DNA of 64,000 nucleotides from contig NZ_JAIOTY010000001.1 of the NCBI RefSeq assembly GCF_019931275.1, positions 620,001 through 684,000 on the forward strand. Reading direction: 5' to 3'. This document shows, in pieces, positions 44,498 to 54,533 of the stretch (position 1 is its first letter; every line of letters starts with the position of its first letter). The notes under the pieces were generated by a model. It made no database searches, was not told where the DNA came from, and worked only from the letters and a program-made list of their open reading frames with translations. The DNA is from Nitratidesulfovibrio sp. SRB-5 (lineage in GTDB: Bacteria; Desulfobacterota; Desulfovibrionia; Desulfovibrionales; Desulfovibrionaceae). Both the position numbers and the translations under genes were made by a program.

Positions 44498-46594
44498 TCA
44501 GGCCGCGTCCTGCCCGTTTCCGGCAGGGCCATTACCGCCCGTGCCGTCAGGGGATTCCGCGCGGGCGGGCCTGGCCTGCTGGGCGCATACCCGGTTGCGG
44601 CCCTCTTCCTTGGCGCGCATCAACATGTGGTCGGCCCGGCGGATCAGGTCGTCCAGCGAATCGTTGGCCCCCCGGTATTCCGCCGCGCCCACGCTGACGG
44701 TGCACCCCACCCACACGTCGCGCACGGCCACCGGGGCGTCCTCCACGGCGGCGCGGATGCGTTCCGCCGTGCGCAGGGCGCGTTCCTGCGCCGTTTCCGG
44801 CAGCAGCACGCCGAATTCCTCGCCCCCCAGGCGCCCGATAAGGTCGTTTTCTCGCAGGGACAGGCCCATCACGTCGGTGATGTGGCGCAGCACCATGTCG
44901 CCCGCCTCGTGCCCCCAGGTGTCGTTGATGGACTTGAAGTGGTCGGCATCCAGCAGCAGCACGGAAAGCGGGCGGCCATAGCGTTGGGCGCGCGCCGCCT
45001 CGTCCTCCAGCCGGGCCATGAAATGGCGGCGGTTTGCCACGCCGGTCAGTTCGTCGGTGGTGGCCAGTTGTTCCAGGCGCAGGGTGTCTTCCACCTGGTC
45101 GGTCACGTCCAGGAAAAAGCTTTCCACTTCCGGCGCTTCCGGCGTGCCGGTGCGCCGGGCGTACAGCGACACCCAGATGGCCTCGCCGCCGCGCCGGTAC
45201 CAGCGCAGCCGCAGCCCGGTCACCACCTCTCCGGCGGTCAGGTCGTCCAGCATGGCCTGGCGGTCCACAGGTTCGGCGTACAGGGGGATGACGGAATCAT
45301 CCAGCACTGCGCGGGCGTGGGCCACGTCGCGAAAACCCAGCAGGGCCGCGCCGTGCTGGTTCAGCACGTTGATGGTGCCGTCCCAGGCGGTGCGAAAGAT
45401 GCCGATGGGCGCGTTTTCCACCAGTTCGCGGTGCTGGCGTTCGGCATCGCGCAGGGCGGCTTCCGCGTCGCGGCGGGCCGTGACCAGTTCGTTCAGGTGG
45501 CGGTTCAACGCGCCGAATTCGTCACGCCCGGTGAACAGGTTGCGCACGGTGAAGTCGCCGCGCGCAACGCTGCGCATGTATTCGGCAAGCTGGCCCACCC
45601 GACCGGACGCCCCCGCCGTTGCCACCGCGAACAGCACGGCAAACAGGAGGAGCGTGCCGCCGATGGCAAGGATGGTGCCGTAGCGGATGGGGGCCACGGC
45701 GCGCAGCAGTTCTTCCTGCGGCACCAGCAGCACCAGCCGCCAGCCAGGGCCGGGCACCGCGCGCACGGCTGTCAGCACCTGTTCGCCGTCCACGTGCAGG
45801 TAGGTGGCGCCGTTGCCCGCATTGTCGCCTATGGTGCCGCCGATGGCCCTGTCCGTCCCGTGTGCGGCATAGGTGCCGCGCGCCAGGTTGCGCAGGGGGG
45901 TGGTGTCCACGCGGTCGGCCAGCGCGGCTCCGAGCCCGGTGGCGGTGACGGGGTGCCCATTGGCGGTAAGCACCAGCAGCCCGCTGCCCGAGGGCAGGGC
46001 CACGCCGGAAAGGATGTTCCGCAGTCCGTCGGTGGTGATGTCCAGGCCAAGCACTCCCAGCGGCTTGCCGCCCGCCGGATCGTCCACCGTGGCCACGGTG
46101 CTGACCACGGTCTTGCCGGTGATGAATTCGGTGTACGGGTCGGACCAGCCCACCACGCCGGGGTGTTCCATGGCCCTGCGGAACCACGGACGCGTCCTGG
46201 CGTCGAAGTCGGGTGGCAAATCGCGCGGGGGCTGGATGGCGTGGACCCGCCCGGACATGTCCGCGAAGTAGACGAAGTAGGCTTCGGGCCGTTGCCGCAG
46301 GAAGCTGGCCCAACTGGCCATCAGCCCCTGATGGTCGTAGGGCCGCCCGGAAAGGCAGGCCACCACGCGCGGATCCTGGCGCAGGCTGGCCACGGCGCGG
46401 GCGTATTCACCGGCGTACTGGCTGACGATGGCGTTGGCCAGGGTGTCCGCCTGAAGGGCCATGGCCGATTCTGCCCCGTGCAGCATGATGTTTTTGGCGC
46501 GTACGTAGGAAAACGTCCCGAGCGCGACCAGCGCTAGGGACGAAAGGATGGCAAGAAGCAGCAACAGGCGTTGCCGTAAGGGGATGACCCGCAT
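44498..46594 (-). CDS. dCache-HAMP-PAS diguanylate cyclase
   Basis: A 698-residue membrane signalling protein. One N-terminal helix (about 8-28), a periplasmic double-Cache domain (about 40-285, with PWFRRAMEHPGVVGWSDPY and LGLDITTDGLRN), a second helix (about 305-325), HAMP (about 328-380), PAS with PAC motif (about 395-515) and GGDEF (about 525-680). The active site is RLGGEEFG and the inhibitory RxxD site (REND) lies five residues before it, so it should make cyclic di-GMP with product feedback. dCache domains usually bind small organic molecules; the ligand here is unknown. There is no EAL domain. It is monocistronic by position. Confidence 0.93.
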   Translation of the reverse strand: MRVIPLRQRLLLLLAILSSLALVALGTFSYVRAKNIMLHGAESAMALQADTLANAIVSQYAGEYARAVASLRQDPRVVACLSGRPYDHQGLMASWASFLRQRPEAYFVYFADMSGRVHAIQPPRDLPPDFDARTRPWFRRAMEHPGVVGWSDPYTEFITGKTVVSTVATVDDPAGGKPLGVLGLDITTDGLRNILSGVALPSGSGLLVLTANGHPVTATGLGAALADRVDTTPLRNLARGTYAAHGTDRAIGGTIGDNAGNGATYLHVDGEQVLTAVRAVPGPGWRLVLLVPQEELLRAVAPIRYGTILAIGGTLLLFAVLFAVATAGASGRVGQLAEYMRSVARGDFTVRNLFTGRDEFGALNRHLNELVTARRDAEAALRDAERQHRELVENAPIGIFRTAWDGTINVLNQHGAALLGFRDVAHARAVLDDSVIPLYAEPVDRQAMLDDLTAGEVVTGLRLRWYRRGGEAIWVSLYARRTGTPEAPEVESFFLDVTDQVEDTLRLEQLATTDELTGVANRRHFMARLEDEAARAQRYGRPLSVLLLDADHFKSINDTWGHEAGDMVLRHITDVMGLSLRENDLIGRLGGEEFGVLLPETAQERALRTAERIRAAVEDAPVAVRDVWVGCTVSVGAAEYRGANDSLDDLIRRADHMLMRAKEEGRNRVCAQQARPARAESPDGTGGNGPAGNGQDAA

Positions 46595-47177
46595 GTCGGT
46601 CCTCGCGCCGGAGGAAAGGGCGCATGGTCAGTAGCGCACGGTCGGGGCATGGTCGGGGCATGATCGAACGTTGCGGAAACCTACAGGATGCGGCGCCGTG
46701 CCGCAAGCATTCCGCAATGGTGGCTGCCGATTGGCGGGCGCGCCGCGCCGTGGCTTGGGCGTTCGTTGCCGTTGCTCCGGGTTTGCATTTTTCGCGTCGC
46801 CTCTTTCCTGTCAGGCACCATTCGCAACGCGCCGCCCGTCCTTGCGCTGTCCGTTCTTGCGCCGTCCGCCCTTGCGCCGTCCGTCCGGTCGGCCCTGTCC
46901 CCGTCTTCATCTGCCGCCCTTCCTCTTGACGGGCCGTGTTGCGGTCCTTTTCTTTTCTTGCAGCCACGTTGCCCGCATGGCGCGAGTCTGATAGGGCATG
47001 GGTAAGGTCGGGTATCTCCATGCGCCTGCTGCCGCGAGCCATGTATCCCTGGCCAGTGCGCGCCGTCGGGAGGGGATGGGGCGTCCGCGCGGCGGACGGC
47101 CCGCGCCGGGGCCGTGCACCGTCACGGTCGTTCACCGCCCGCGACACCACGGGGCAAAGGGGCAAGGGGGATATGCC
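46595..47177. other. Divergent intergenic region
   Basis: About 580 bases between the cyclase start and the thioredoxin-fold gene, without a supported gene. It contains a tandem repeat at 46836-46890. Promoters for both genes are expected but not identified. Confidence 0.4.
46836..46890. repeat. Fifteen-base tandem repeat (CCGCCCTTGCGCCGT type)
   Basis: Three to four imperfect copies of a 14-15 base unit, CCG(T/C)(C/T)CTTGCGC(C/T)GT. Confidence 0.6.
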
Positions 47178-49580
<2,403 letters not shown>

Positions 49581-49734
49581 GGCGGCGGCATTGTCCATGG
49601 ATGGCGTGGGTTGCCGGGCCATCGCGGGGGAACCGGGAGCAGTATGCGCTGGTCAGTCTGTGCGTGCGCGTGGAGCGCATGAGGGTGAGGGGAAGGCGCG
49701 CGAGGGCGGGGCGGGTTGTAACGGGCAGTTGCGT

Positions 49735-49800
49735 ATCCCTGAGAAATAGGCGTGGACTGTTTGTGTGAACGGTATGTTTCGCTTGTGATATTGGTATGTT
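49735..49800 (+). promoter_or_regulatory. AT-rich patch, possible riboswitch promoter
   Basis: The only AT-rich stretch before the glycine riboswitch, with TTGTGT and TGATAT hexamers about 19 bases apart. The spacing is longer than ideal, so it is offered as the likely promoter region only. Confidence 0.3.
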
Positions 49801-49867
49801 GCGACAGAGCTTGCGTTTCCCCCGGCAACCGGATACACCCCCATTCACGCTTGGTTTCGGATGACGA

Positions 49868-50051
49868 CAGCAGGAGAGACCCCAGCCGGCGGCAAACGGC
49901 ATGGGGCGCCGACGAAGTGAATCTTTCAGGCGAAAGGACTGCTGCCCGACGAACCTCTGGAGAGCCTCCATCCGTGGAGCACCGAAGGAGCAAACCGCCC
50001 GTGTCCTCGCAGGGAACCGGGGCGGCGAAACTCTCAGGTAAAAGGACAGAG
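49868..50051 (+). ncRNA. Tandem glycine riboswitch without a downstream gene
   Basis: Two adjacent aptamers. The first (49868-49944) is closed by CAGCAG/CTGCTG and contains GGAGAG, CGCCGACGAAG and CTTTCAGGCGAAAGGAC. The second (49955-50051) contains GGAGAGCCTCC, GCACCGAAGGAGCAAACC and CTCTCAGGTAAAAGGACAGAG (quoted as CTCTCAGGTAAAAGGAC plus AGAG). These are the conserved cores of the cooperative glycine riboswitch, with the usual short linker. In known cases it controls glycine cleavage genes or a sodium:alanine/glycine symporter. Here the next 640 bases on this strand encode nothing recognisable and the next gene is on the other strand. Confidence 0.93.
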
Positions 50052-50187
50052 TGCCACGCGTGACTCCGGCAGGCATGCGCCCGCCGCGCCCCGTGCGCGG
50101 CGGCTCCCGCCCGCGACCCGGCTGGCTGGCCGATCTTTTGCGATCGTGCCCATGCCGGGGTGCCGCCGGAACCCACCGTGCCCCCCA

Positions 50188-50213
50188 GGCAGGCCCGCTT
50201 CGCGCGGGCTGCC
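50188..50213 (+). terminator. Hairpin downstream of the glycine riboswitch
   Basis: GGCA-G-GCCCGC / GCGGGC-TGCC, a ten-base-pair stem with one bulge, about 135 bases after the second aptamer. No U-run follows. It could be a remnant of the expression platform or an ordinary stop signal. Confidence 0.35.
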
Positions 50214-50363
50214 GTCCTCCGCTTCCACACCGGCTTTCCCGGCAGGCGAATCCGCCATGCTTTCCGACACCCTGGTGCCCGTACACCCGTGTTGGAAACG
50301 TGCGCATTCGTTCCGCCGCATGGGGTCGTCACAAATGCGTGCCGGAACCTTGCGTGGCGGAAC

Positions 50364-50398
50364 GTGCGCGCGGCGGCCCAACTGCCGCCGCGCGGCAC
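50364..50398. repeat. Strong isolated hairpin
   Basis: GTGC-GCGCGGCGGC / GCCGCCGCGC-GGCAC, 14 base pairs with one bulge and a six-base loop, inside the gene-free stretch after the riboswitch. Confidence 0.45.
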
Positions 50399-50539
50399 GA
50401 CCGCAATGCGAAGTTGGCAACGCCCTGTCTCCTGGGCGAGTCATGTGGTCGCAGGCCGGAGGGGCGGTCCCTTCGGCCTGTCGCCGTTTCTGGGCCTGTC
50501 GGGCTACGGTCCTTTGGCCCCCCTGTCTTCCGACCCGAA

Positions 50540-50660
50540 GGGCGGGCTTGCGGGCCTTGCCCCATCCATAAGGCTCGCGCGGCGCGCTTGCCGACGGCCG
50601 CGGCATATTCCCTTCATGAAAGACAGTTCTTCCTCTCCAGAGAACAGAAATCCACATGGC
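50540..50660. repeat. Palindromic intergenic element family, divergent copy
   Basis: CATCCATAAGGCTCGCGCGG, TTGCCGACGG and GTTCTTCCTCTCCAGAGAAC align with the livF copy in the same orientation. It ends just before the DUF2459-type gene stop at 50694. No clear terminal inverted repeats were seen. Confidence 0.5.
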
Positions 50661-50693
50661 CCGGAAAGGCGCCGGGAGAACTGGCGCAGTCCG

Positions 50694-51764
50694 TCAGCGT
50701 TCCGTGGCGGGCAGGTGATGCAGCACGAAGTGGGGCAGGGGCGTCCACACCGGGGTGCGCGCCCCGGTTGCGGCCAGCGCGTCGGCTGCCCAGGTGTTGC
50801 AGGTGCGCAGGGGGCTGAAGCGCCCGGTGGCTTCGAAAAACAGGCTGCCAGGCCCGTAGCCCGCGCCGCCGTTTTCCGGCGTGGCCGGAATGCGCATGGG
50901 GCGCCCAGCGGCATCGCGGCGCAGGCTGGCCGCCACGAAGGCCACAAGGTTCCGGTAGCCCTGCCGTGACAGGTGCAGGATGCGGGTATCCGCATCGGGC
51001 AACGGCGGGCCGGGCATTACCTCCACGTGCAGGGCGGCGGGCGCCAGGGCCAGCGCACGCAGGGCCACGCCGGGGCGCATCTGGTCCCAAGTGGGCGTGG
51101 CCAGGTAGAATTCCCGCGCGCCCCAGCCTATCGCCAGGTAGGCGTTGTCCGGCAGGGCAGTCAGGGCTGTCAGTGCTGTCAGTGCGGTAGGGCCGCTCCT
51201 TTGGCTGCCCGGTCCGCCACCGGTCCCGCCGCCTGACGCATTCCCCGGTCCGTTGCCCGTCCCGCCGTTCTTCCCCGGCGCGTCCAGAAGCCCCGGCACG
51301 TCCGGCAGTCCCAGCACGTCCGCCAACCCCGGTTCTCCTTCCACTCGTGCGGGCAGCACGATGTCCGCATGCACCCCGTTGCTGATCACATGGATGGTCA
51401 CTGGCGGGGCTTCGCGCGTTGCGGCGTCCGCCATCCCCGCGTTTTCTCCGCCCGGCGTGCCCTGCGCGTCCGGTGCACCGGGCGCATCGGGCGCACCGGG
51501 CGCACCGGGCGCGAGCGGTATGGCGGGCGCAGGCGTGTCGTTCCGCTGGTCCGTGGCGTTGGGTGCCGTCCTCACGGGCTGGCAGCATGCGGGCAAGGGC
51601 ACTCCATCAGTCGGGCGCGGCATGCTGCCCAGCACGGCCACGGCCAGCAGGTATCCCAGCGGCAACAGGGCCAGGCCGCGCAATGCCCATGTCAGGGTAC
51701 GAAGCAGGGTACGGCGCAGGGGCGGTTGCGGCGGCTGGCCGGGATGCGGCGTGCGGGACGGCAT
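50694..51764 (-). CDS. DUF2459-type membrane-anchored protein with Pro/Gly linkers
   Basis: A 356-residue protein. A basic N-terminus and one membrane helix (LALLPLGYLLAVAVLGSM, about 32-49) precede a periplasmic part. Motifs fit the DUF2459/TIGR02117 family: VTIHVISNGVHADIVLPA (about 122), LAIGWGAREFYLATPTW (about 210) and NTWAADALAATG near the end, a pattern reminiscent of papain-like hydrolases although activity is not shown. Two low-complexity insertions are unusual: an APGAPGAPDAPGAPDAQG run (about 85-105) and a Gly/Asn/Ser-rich stretch (about 165-190). It is monocistronic by position. Confidence 0.82.
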   Translation of the reverse strand: MPSRTPHPGQPPQPPLRRTLLRTLTWALRGLALLPLGYLLAVAVLGSMPRPTDGVPLPACCQPVRTAPNATDQRNDTPAPAIPLAPGAPGAPDAPGAPDAQGTPGGENAGMADAATREAPPVTIHVISNGVHADIVLPARVEGEPGLADVLGLPDVPGLLDAPGKNGGTGNGPGNASGGGTGGGPGSQRSGPTALTALTALTALPDNAYLAIGWGAREFYLATPTWDQMRPGVALRALALAPAALHVEVMPGPPLPDADTRILHLSRQGYRNLVAFVAASLRRDAAGRPMRIPATPENGGAGYGPGSLFFEATGRFSPLRTCNTWAADALAATGARTPVWTPLPHFVLHHLPATER

Positions 51765-52637: not shown

Positions 52638-54533
52638 TCAGGAGAGATGCCGCCCGGCGGAACGCTGTCCGGACGTGCCCTGCACGTATGGGTGGAACTT
52701 GGTGTCGTCGTCCAGCATGTGGCGCGCCACCACCTCGTGGGAGATGACCCGCAGCGCCGTGTCGAGGGGAAGGTTGGCGTGCTCGTAGCGAGCGGCCAGG
52801 TCGCCCGCCGCTTCCAGCAGGGTGGCGTGCAGTTCCGCGTGGTGCTCGGCGTCGGGGTAGCCCCGGCTGCGCAGCACGGCTTCCTCGTCGCGGAAATGCT
52901 CGGCAAGGGCGGTGAGCAGTTCGTGGATGATGGCCAGGCAGGCCGCGCGGGGGGCGTTGTCCAGAAAGGCGGCCAACAGCCGGTTGACCATCTCGAACAG
53001 TTGGCGGTGCTGGGCGTCGATGCGTGCCTCGCCGCATTCGTACGAACGGCTCCAGGCAAGCCGCAGCAGATCGGCGTGCGGGCAGGCCTGCGGGGGCAGG
53101 ATGTCCTGTGCCGTGGCCACCGTGTTCCGCCCCTTGGACTTGGCCCGGTACAAGGCCCGGTCGGCCATGTCGATTGCCTGGTCCGGGGTGGCGTTGCGCC
53201 CGCCGCGCACCGTGGTCACGCCCACGCTGACGGTAACGTGGCCCGCCGGGGTGTTGCCCGGGTGGACGATGCACAGTTCGGCCACGGCGCAACGAATGCG
53301 TTCGGCCATCTGTGCCGCCCCCGCTTCCGCCGTGCCGGGCAGCACGCAGGCGAATTCCTCGCCGCCGTAGCGGGCCACCATGTCGGGCGCGCGGTGGACC
53401 ACCGTGCGCAGGGTGTGCGCCACGGCCCGCAGGCAGGTGTCACCCGCCAGATGGCCGTGGATGTCGTTGTAGGACTTGAAGTTGTCCACATCGACCATCA
53501 GCAGCGACAGCACGTCCTCCGAACGCTGGGCTCGGCGCAGTTCCGCTTCCAGGGCGCAATCCAGACGACTTCTGTTGAACAGCCCGGTCAGCGGGTCGCG
53601 CATGGCCTTCTGTTCCCACATTTCGCGGTTGCTGTCGGCGTTCAGCAACTGGCGGTTGTGCAGGGCCACTCCCAGGGTGACTATGGTGGTGCTGCACAGG
53701 AATGTGGCCAGCAGAAAGGCCGCCTCGCCCGTGGTGGGCATCTGGAAGGGACCGAAGCCCATGGTGGCGCCGTAGGCCACGGCCATCATGGAAGGGGCCA
53801 GGGCCAGCATCAGCCCGTGCAGGCGGGCATTGTAGGCCAGCAGCACCAGCAGGGGCATGATGAAGTAGATGCACCCGCCATACCCGTTGAAGGACAGCAG
53901 AAGAAACACCAGGTTGCCGCCCAGCACGCCCCCCAGCCAGCGGCATTCCCTGCCGGTAAGGTGGCGGTATGCGGCGCAGGCCCGGTACAACGGGTAGACC
54001 AGCAGCAGCCCCAGGCATACCGCCATGACCAGCGTGGCGAACAGGTATTCTGCCTGGTCCCACGGCACGTATCCTTCCGTAGCCTGTTGCAGGACGATGA
54101 CCCCGGCGCCGGAGACGGCGGCGGGCAGGCAGACCCTGCCCACTGCGCGGAACAGGTCGGGCACGCTGGCAGGTGGCGCGGCGAACACGCGTTGCAGGAG
54201 CATGGCGGCCATGCCCCCGGCAAGGGCGTCGGACACGGCGGCGGACAGCACGCAGGACAGGGGCAGTGCCGCGTGGCGCGCTGGCCCGGAAAGCAGGGCC
54301 ACGGCCAGGGAAAGGACCGCGATGAGCGGCATGGACTGCCAGCCGCTGCGCAGGCACACCACCATGGCCACCCCGGCCCCAAGACGCAGCGGGGTCAGGT
54401 TGTGCACGCCCAGGGCAAAGACGTTGGCGTCCAGCCAGGTGGCGGCGCAGTAGGCGGAAAGGGCGGAGAATAGCCAGACGGCACCGGTGGCTGGCCGGGG
54501 CGCGGTGGTTTCTCCGGTTGCGGGTCGATCCAT
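52638..54533 (-). CDS. Membrane diguanylate cyclase fused to bacteriohemerythrin
   Basis: A 631-residue protein. The N-terminal 300 residues hold about eight hydrophobic segments (a MASE1-like sensor; assignment tentative). GGDEF follows (about 315-480) with active site ARYGGEEFACVLP (about 389) and RxxD feedback site RAPD five residues upstream. The C-terminal 125 residues are a bacteriohemerythrin domain: IDAQHRQLFEMVN, HFRDEE, HHAELH and HMLDDD supply the His/Glu/Asp ligands of the di-iron O2 site. Oxygen or redox state of the iron pair probably controls cyclic di-GMP synthesis, a sensible input for an anaerobe. It is monocistronic. Confidence 0.93.
   Translation of the reverse strand: MDRPATGETTAPRPATGAVWLFSALSAYCAATWLDANVFALGVHNLTPLRLGAGVAMVVCLRSGWQSMPLIAVLSLAVALLSGPARHAALPLSCVLSAAVSDALAGGMAAMLLQRVFAAPPASVPDLFRAVGRVCLPAAVSGAGVIVLQQATEGYVPWDQAEYLFATLVMAVCLGLLLVYPLYRACAAYRHLTGRECRWLGGVLGGNLVFLLLSFNGYGGCIYFIMPLLVLLAYNARLHGLMLALAPSMMAVAYGATMGFGPFQMPTTGEAAFLLATFLCSTTIVTLGVALHNRQLLNADSNREMWEQKAMRDPLTGLFNRSRLDCALEAELRRAQRSEDVLSLLMVDVDNFKSYNDIHGHLAGDTCLRAVAHTLRTVVHRAPDMVARYGGEEFACVLPGTAEAGAAQMAERIRCAVAELCIVHPGNTPAGHVTVSVGVTTVRGGRNATPDQAIDMADRALYRAKSKGRNTVATAQDILPPQACPHADLLRLAWSRSYECGEARIDAQHRQLFEMVNRLLAAFLDNAPRAACLAIIHELLTALAEHFRDEEAVLRSRGYPDAEHHAELHATLLEAAGDLAARYEHANLPLDTALRVISHEVVARHMLDDDTKFHPYVQGTSGQRSAGRHLS

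Follow-up and report, generated by a model that had tools for sequence, protein, structure and literature searches.

The question raised by this locus is what a well-formed tandem glycine riboswitch controls when no gene follows it on its own strand. A glycine switch would be expected to control the glycine-cleavage (gcv) genes, and riboswitches are usually defined as cis elements. The window analysed is the whole stretch of 64,000 nucleotides (C1:620001-684000), and all positions given below refer to it unless the contig is named. The reading favoured here, which comparison of the sequences renders probable, is that the riboswitch controls a small RNA acting in trans on the glycine-cleavage mRNAs and limiting their translation.

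The tandem riboswitch and its surroundings

Two RF00504 aptamers were found by cmscan on the plus strand, aptamer 1 at 49861-49951 (52.2 bits) and aptamer 2 at 49955-50051 (54.3 bits), against a gathering score of 32; in the whole-genome covariance search aptamer 2 extends over 49947-50059 with 60 bits. This confirms the tandem that the initial annotation had recognised from the letters alone. The two aptamers are the sole Rfam matches above cut-off within the 64-kb window, the glycine-GGAnGA riboswitch (RF03166) remaining below its gathering cut-off at the locus (86.1 vs 110 bits), and the whole-genome RF00504 search gave no other glycine riboswitch elsewhere in the genome.

Its description as an orphan in cis also holds, as neither a gcv nor a symporter gene follows the riboswitch and no cis-regulated gene lies on the plus strand between it and the next gene, a convergent DUF2459 gene on the minus strand (50694-51764). 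The upstream neighbour (46998-49580, plus strand) is a DUF255/thioredoxin-like gene. Two GGDEF proteins flank the region on the minus strand (44498-46594 and 52638-54533), one carrying dCache and HAMP domains and the other a hemerythrin domain together with a sub-threshold match to MASE1. The single gcvT of the genome is located at C1:1643713, about 974 kb from the locus, and gcvH at C1:1492565, about 823 kb away.

A putative promoter on the plus strand (TTGCGT at 49811-49816, a 17-nt spacer and TACACC at 49834-49839) lies within or beside the block conserved in six aligned genomes of the genus, and a promoter-like TTGCSY-N17/18-TA... was seen by eye in both of the other genera described below. 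A consensus scan of the locus called no promoter and did not call the terminal hairpin as a terminator. A clear terminator or expression platform was not found in this genome's locus, which counts against the proposed model. The 3' half of aptamer 1 (49925-49945) could base-pair with the 3' strand of the terminal hairpin (50460-50481; −26.7 kcal/mol), possibly as an intramolecular switch or else by chance in GC-rich DNA.

Conservation and folding of the downstream RNA

The DNA beyond the riboswitch had been described as holding only hairpins and a repeat element. Both hairpins, one at 50188-50213 and a GC-rich one at 50364-50398 whose sequence is nearly unchanged in seven genomes, are present on the plus strand in the predicted folds. 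The supposed repeat has no second copy in the genome (non-self matches of at most 40 bases), and the conservation of 50054-50490 itself had been overlooked.

Alignment of six genomes of the genus revealed a well-conserved block from about 49810 to 50490, preceded by poorly aligned intergenic DNA (identity of 0.72-0.81 where 49740-49815 can be aligned). Downstream of the riboswitch, the 437 nt of 50054-50490 (plus strand) display identities of 0.961, 0.936, 0.956, 0.923 and 0.888 to five relatives, as compared to 0.868, 0.867, 0.844, 0.794 and 0.783 at the third codon positions of the upstream gene in the same relatives, and 0.69-0.83 at those of the downstream gene. The last 90 nt of the RNA are its most conserved part (0.956-0.989). 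The riboswitch is present in 6 of the 8 genomes of the genus, this one included, and the downstream DNA in 7; the genomes lacking the full locus are assemblies in more than 800 contigs, of which G112 has a contig beginning within the element and G124 is devoid of both riboswitch and downstream DNA.

The predicted fold of the RNA has an energy of −252.3 kcal/mol vs −220.1 (sd 6.6) for shuffled sequences (z of −4.9, 0 of 100 as low), which points to a structured molecule. Covariation within the genus is slight, with a double change in 3 of 142 pairs and an unfavourable covariation term (+3.46). A 27-nt insertion occurs at one shared place, between 50398 and 50401, in two genomes (G100, L035, and G038, L037).

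The high G+C content leaves long open frames across the region, which is the point in favour of an unannotated small protein, or the controlled peptide suggested earlier, under the riboswitch. The variable columns are, however, evenly distributed over the codon phases (29, 25 and 25), reading frames are not kept between relatives and no Pfam family was found in the three plus-strand open reading frames over the region, so the protein-coding reading of 50054-50490 was rejected and a small protein is scarcely credible. No known RNA family was recognised downstream above cut-off, the best non-glycine match being weak (21.3 bits vs 112). A mobile element was also dismissed, as the RNA has no match in phages or plasmids; one exact 31-nt pattern of it was not found in viral contigs.

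A role as an RNA antisense to the DUF2459 gene had likewise been put forward. It would suit the convergent orientation and the alignment, in one relative (G085), of the DNA right up to that gene, and a riboswitch-controlled antisense RNA, AspocR, is described for Listeria in the passages drawn on (PMC8079631). However, conservation of the RNA ceases near 50490, leaving 200 bases to the gene, the intervening 50500-50690 is replaced in four of the five relatives, and the neighbours differ in the other two genera, all of which makes the antisense role very improbable.

Occurrence of the same layout in other genera

A glycine riboswitch was detected in 31 of the 149 family genomes searched, and a scan of one genome per species over 84,980 species for such tandems yielded 21 loci. 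Among the 20 examined, 14 precede a gene that is symporter-like by sequence likeness only, 5 are orphans, distributed over three genera, and 1 is undecidable. The layout of tandem glycine riboswitch, non-coding RNA and terminal hairpin is shared by eight genomes of the Halodesulfovibrio group and two of a third genus (G045 and G002), and the neighbouring genes differ among the three genera. In the Halodesulfovibrio group, eight genomes have a tandem riboswitch without a symporter gene after it (five of these loci were examined by open reading frames and all eight by alignment), with a queuine tRNA-ribosyltransferase gene nearby (Pfam on one). In the third genus, both genes flanking the riboswitch are on the opposite strand, which excludes an operon leader there; after the riboswitch come a small hairpin, which in G002 has a T-run, about 200-300 nt of sequence and then a strong terminator-like hairpin. 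Single glycine aptamers L014 and L016 (G034 and G019) precede a gene resembling, by sequence, the glycine-reductase type.

Sequence homology of the RNA across the genera was found neither by DNA search nor by covariance model. When 288 family genomes were searched, the downstream RNA was recovered in 7 of the 8 genomes of the genus, and 8 others gave only matches of up to about 50 bases. A covariance model (R1) of the eight Halodesulfovibrio-group tails finds those eight and otherwise, in 149 genomes, weak matches that do not exceed 27.4 bits and in many cases are nothing but hairpins; in the window it gives the tail 9.7 bits (E of 1.2), an unrelated hairpin scoring better (12.0 bits), which is a point against the proposed trans-acting RNA. 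Relatedness across genera therefore rests on layout and not on sequence. A gene like the 132-aa gene downstream of the window locus is also found downstream in five Halodesulfovibrio-group genomes, which suggests, without proving, that these loci are orthologous to that of the window.

These comparisons also bear on the earlier suggestion that the controlled gene was deleted, leaving a riboswitch that once led a symporter gene and a locus now functionless or a mere transcribed leader. The genome is without any match to the AGCS symporter family (PF01235), and 14 of the 20 tandems precede a symporter-like gene. Seven of the eight Halodesulfovibrio-group genomes carry a second tandem, which is 102-117 nt upstream of a symporter-like gene in 4 of the 4 examined (Pfam on one), and deletion may for that reason describe the origin of the orphan. 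As an account of the present locus it is insufficient, since the downstream 437 nt are more conserved than the third codon positions of the neighbours and orphan loci with a terminal hairpin occur in three genera with different neighbours; a functionless remnant is accordingly improbable. Out of the three options of the initial annotation, an unrecognised small RNA under riboswitch control fits best.

The 3' part of the RNA and its complementarity to gcv leaders

Near the 3' end on the plus strand, a hairpin CGCCC-UGUCUCCU-GGGCG (50421-50438) presents a loop of the anti-Shine-Dalgarno type (50426-50433) and is followed by the linker AGTCATGTGGTCGC (50439-50452), both being invariant in seven genomes. 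The linker leads from this CUCCU-loop hairpin to a predicted terminal hairpin with a short T-rich tail (50453-50489; stem 50453-50463 paired with 50469-50479), the proposed 3' end. In the Halodesulfovibrio group, the terminal hairpin, with three doubly changed pairs, is preceded by the invariant linker GGTTTGTTGTTGTGGTTGC, and the piece before the linker is CCUCCUGA in most genomes, where the present genus has the UGUCUCCU loop.

Linker bases 50440-50449 are a perfect 10-nt complement of the gcvT leader. This site was noticed on reading the gcvT leader and not by the search of the genus for the 14-nt linker complement with at most one mismatch, which returned the RNA itself and one further match in one genome. 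When the Halodesulfovibrio-group linker was picked out as invariant, no target had yet been recognised, and the linker of the present genus was likewise fixed ahead of the discovery of its gcvT site; the loop piece entered the pairing test later. A search of seven Halodesulfovibrio-group genomes for the complement of their linker (at most three mismatches) gave seven self matches and 27 others, against 16 for a reversed control pattern. Two of the 23 matches inspected lie in gcvT leaders (G079 and G021) and one in a gcvH leader (G021), the identity of both genes in this group coming from Pfam searches.

The longest exact linker complement in the 90 nt before the start was determined for 25 gcvT and 25 gcvH leaders from 26 genomes; the gcvT of G015, the gcvH of G136 and a second gcvH of four Halodesulfovibrio-group genomes (L182-L185, in G120, G132, G057 and G096) are absent from these tests. 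In this genus, the 10-nt complement (ACCACATGAC) is present in the gcvT leader of 7 of 8 genomes, with 4 nt in G136, and the longest complement in gcvH is 6 nt (7/7). Halodesulfovibrio-group leaders reach 9-13 nt in gcvT and 8-14 nt in gcvH (8/8 for each) with their own linker. With the linkers swapped, the longest complement is 5-7 nt for gcvT and 4-6 nt for gcvH. The 15 control leaders, from eight genomes without the RNA, give 3-5 nt for the linker of this genus and 4-8 nt for that of the Halodesulfovibrio group. The G136 gcvT leader (L211), which comes from a fragmented genome, has GGAGACA without ACCACATGAC; this speaks against the model and is either a true loss or an assembly error.

On shuffling of the leaders, matches as good were obtained in 4 and 5 of 1500 shuffles for gcvT, and 560 and 595 for gcvH, in two genomes of this genus. 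The corresponding counts in the Halodesulfovibrio group are 114 (G120), 0, 79, 99, 31, 68, 39 and 1 for gcvT, and 47, 55, 44, 63, 168, 176, 1 and 40 for gcvH; as several shuffled leaders do as well, part of the match in this group is explained by the CA-rich composition of the leaders. In the present genome, the 10-nt match is the sole match of at least 8 nt between the 449-nt RNA and the gcvT leader, the decamer of the gcvT site is found nowhere else in 304 kb of the genome (gcvT not included), and a 10-nt match to the linker piece is reached by 6 of 4,218 90-nt windows (64 kb).

Proposed two-part pairing and its background

In this genome, loop and linker find their complements in the gcvT leader in collinear order (7 and 10 nt), the pairing pieces spanning −58 to −5 of the gcvT start. 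The loop can pair with the GGAGACA that immediately precedes the Shine-Dalgarno sequence of gcvT; extended by neighbouring bases of the stem, it offers CUCCUGG to CCAGGAG in the gcvH leader. In the Halodesulfovibrio group, the loop piece pairs with the Shine-Dalgarno region of gcvH and some gcvT, in the right order. The summed two-part score for gcvT is 17 in 7 of the 8 genomes of this genus and 0 in G136, and none of 60,518 background windows reaches 15 or more; the score of 13 for gcvH here is reached by 104 of them. Twelve of 16 Halodesulfovibrio-group leaders score 14-21, nine of these at least 16, a score reached by at most 1 of 42,560 windows of G132 background DNA. The remaining four leaders (G132 and G096), in which the loop piece is without an exact match, score 0 and count against the model.

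The duplex energies for the segment of this genus are −39.6 with its own gcvT and −29.1 with its own gcvH, control and third-genus leaders ranging from −14.4 to −34.1; since control leaders go lower than gcvH, the latter is not special here. The main Halodesulfovibrio-group segment gives −31.2 to −41.5 with the cognate leaders shown, −15.8 to −28.5 with control and third-genus leaders and −17.1 to −28.9 in crossed combinations. Among background gene starts, which depend on crude gene calls, an energy as low is found for gcvT and gcvH in 1 and 42 of 90 in this genome, 0 and 1 of 151 in G132, and 22 and 2 of 113 in G045 of the third genus. Seeds shuffled 500 times are as good in 0 cases for gcvT and 38 for gcvH in this genome. 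In the Halodesulfovibrio group, such seeds number 0 in six genomes and 2 in two for gcvT, and 0 in six genomes and 17 and 53 in the other two for gcvH. In the two genomes of the third genus they number 4 and 46 for gcvH and 13 and 15 for gcvT. The third-genus segment was picked after its match had been seen, and the same CCCAAGGAGG also precedes gcvH in a control genome, G013, that does not have the RNA; the evidence for gcv pairing in that genus is weak.

In an unbiased scan allowing any part of 50401-50490, the pairing of gcvT is equalled by 34 of 30,272 windows and that of gcvH by 4,360; with the whole element, the counts rise to 1,006 and 21,516. This genome alone provides evidence of about one in a thousand for gcvT and nil for gcvH, and genomes within one genus are not independent samples. 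The strength of the gcv case comes from the recurrence of the same pathway with a different linker in the Halodesulfovibrio group, together with the prior expectation that gcv is what a glycine switch controls.

The predicted full-length fold has the linker mostly paired and the loop largely so, which counts against the model; 7 of the 10 bases of the gcvT site are predicted to be free. No match to Hfq (PF17209) was found in the genome, which is also unfavourable. In the consensus fold of seven genomes, ACCGC after the 50364-50398 hairpin (50398-50403) pairs with GUGGU of the linker (50444-50449); this stretch is similar to the gcvT site, and the linker may be masked by it.

A glycine-controlled non-coding RNA could also work by another route, through protein binding as in Rli55 or on mRNAs other than gcv, the gcv complementarity being due to chance and composition. 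The 1,006 windows that match gcvT against the whole element agree with this, as does the fact that most of the RNA (50054-50400) is conserved yet takes no part in the proposed pairing, and riboswitch-headed RNAs that sequester a protein exist according to the passages drawn on (PMC8079631). Both genes of the expected pathway recur, however, with a different linker in a second genus, and the other route is considered rather unlikely.

Proposed mechanism

For the favoured trans-acting small RNA, the sequences themselves display the riboswitch, its lack of a gene in cis, the conserved downstream stretch and the complementarity; production of the RNA, its control by glycine, the pairing and the repression are inferred computationally. 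From its layout, the locus would be an independent transcription unit of promoter, tandem glycine riboswitch, structured non-coding RNA of about 440 nt and terminal hairpin, with transcription of riboswitch and RNA starting from the conserved promoter-like stretch. Glycine, acting via the riboswitch, would set the amount or completion of the RNA, or the folding of its 3' part and how far loop and linker are exposed. Both the loop (UGUCUCCU) and the linker (GUCAUGUGGU) would base-pair in trans with the leader of gcvT, immediately before the ribosome-binding site, and perhaps, weakly, with the gcvH leader, hindering ribosome binding and lowering translation of the glycine-cleavage enzymes. Since gcvH is followed by a gene looking by sequence like gcvPA, both glycine-cleavage transcription units would be reached.

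Two polarities can be envisaged. Glycine could turn the RNA off, inducing gcv for glycine breakdown, or turn it on, repressing gcv as end-product control of a reversed glycine cleavage system. Among the eight Halodesulfovibrio-group RNAs, pairing of the P1 3' strand with downstream sequence varies from −7.6 to −14.5 kcal/mol, and G120 is the only one to resemble a terminator from which an ON switch would result. A symporter glycine riboswitch of S. pyogenes is off in glycine (PMC5829553), and a similar OFF switch would make the RNA a low-glycine repressor. For Desulfovibrio desulfuricans, the cited passages report CO2 fixation via the reductive glycine pathway, with the glycine cleavage system running in reverse (PMC12827605), so glycine control of gcv may matter in the family. 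The fuller reading, towards which the evidence inclines us slightly, is that, within one family of sulfate reducers, a glycine riboswitch away from its mRNA heads a dedicated small RNA governing gcvT and gcvH in trans by two-part pairing, the linker and target sites changing together between genera, possibly for end-product control of a reversed glycine cleavage system.

If true, a glycine switch would reach its canonical pathway by base pairing, a cis switch turned into a trans regulator of several unlinked operons. Other orphan riboswitches would then merit a comparison with the mRNAs of their own pathway, in search of complementary stretches.

Comparison with known systems

GcvB of enterobacteria is a small RNA tied to glycine and has an R1 region, and EutX is reportedly a riboswitch whose output is a non-coding RNA. 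The Halodesulfovibrio-group linker agrees with GcvB at 17 of 20 positions, a level also attained by 38 of 300 shuffled linkers, so that the resemblance is one of composition only. In this genome the linker is unlike GcvB, and a cmscan of 49700-50720 gave no GcvB match at E up to 10; homology to GcvB was rejected.

The usual RF00504 tandem, before gcv operons or AGCS symporters, is resembled in that both aptamers are above cut-off, whereas here a conserved non-coding RNA takes the place of a gene in cis. The passages cited on Oleidesulfovibrio alaskensis G20 give one glycine riboswitch, before alsT (PMC11124144). Riboswitch-headed RNAs are described for cobalamin and SAM in the passages drawn on (PMC8079631), and in searches of the open-licence PubMed Central literature no description came up of a glycine riboswitch at the head of an RNA acting in trans.

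In Neisseria gonorrhoeae, gcvT and gcvH are under both a glycine riboswitch and small RNAs, the sibling sRNAs; as reported (PMC13104608), however, that riboswitch belongs to gcvT and the small RNAs are distinct from it, whereas here the switch would sit on the small RNA. The sRNA RZ, from the metZ SAM-II riboswitch of Sinorhizobium meliloti, similarly ties a riboswitch to small-RNA production, but that riboswitch belongs to a protein gene and has another ligand in the account cited (PMC9373788). Rli55 and AspocR, Listeria RNAs headed by cobalamin riboswitches, share with the present locus a non-coding RNA as riboswitch output; they differ in ligand and, as the cited passages describe them (PMC8079631), act by protein sequestration or cis-antisense and not by pairing with several unlinked mRNAs. 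SreA, a Listeria SAM riboswitch that pairs in trans with prfA, is similar: it derives from a riboswitch and is believed to bind the leader of a distant mRNA by pairing and to impede translation there. In those passages (PMC8079631), SreA arises as the terminated leader of an operon regulated in cis, and what it targets lies outside the pathway of the ligand, whereas the present riboswitch has no gene in cis and its proposed targets belong to the pathway of its own ligand.
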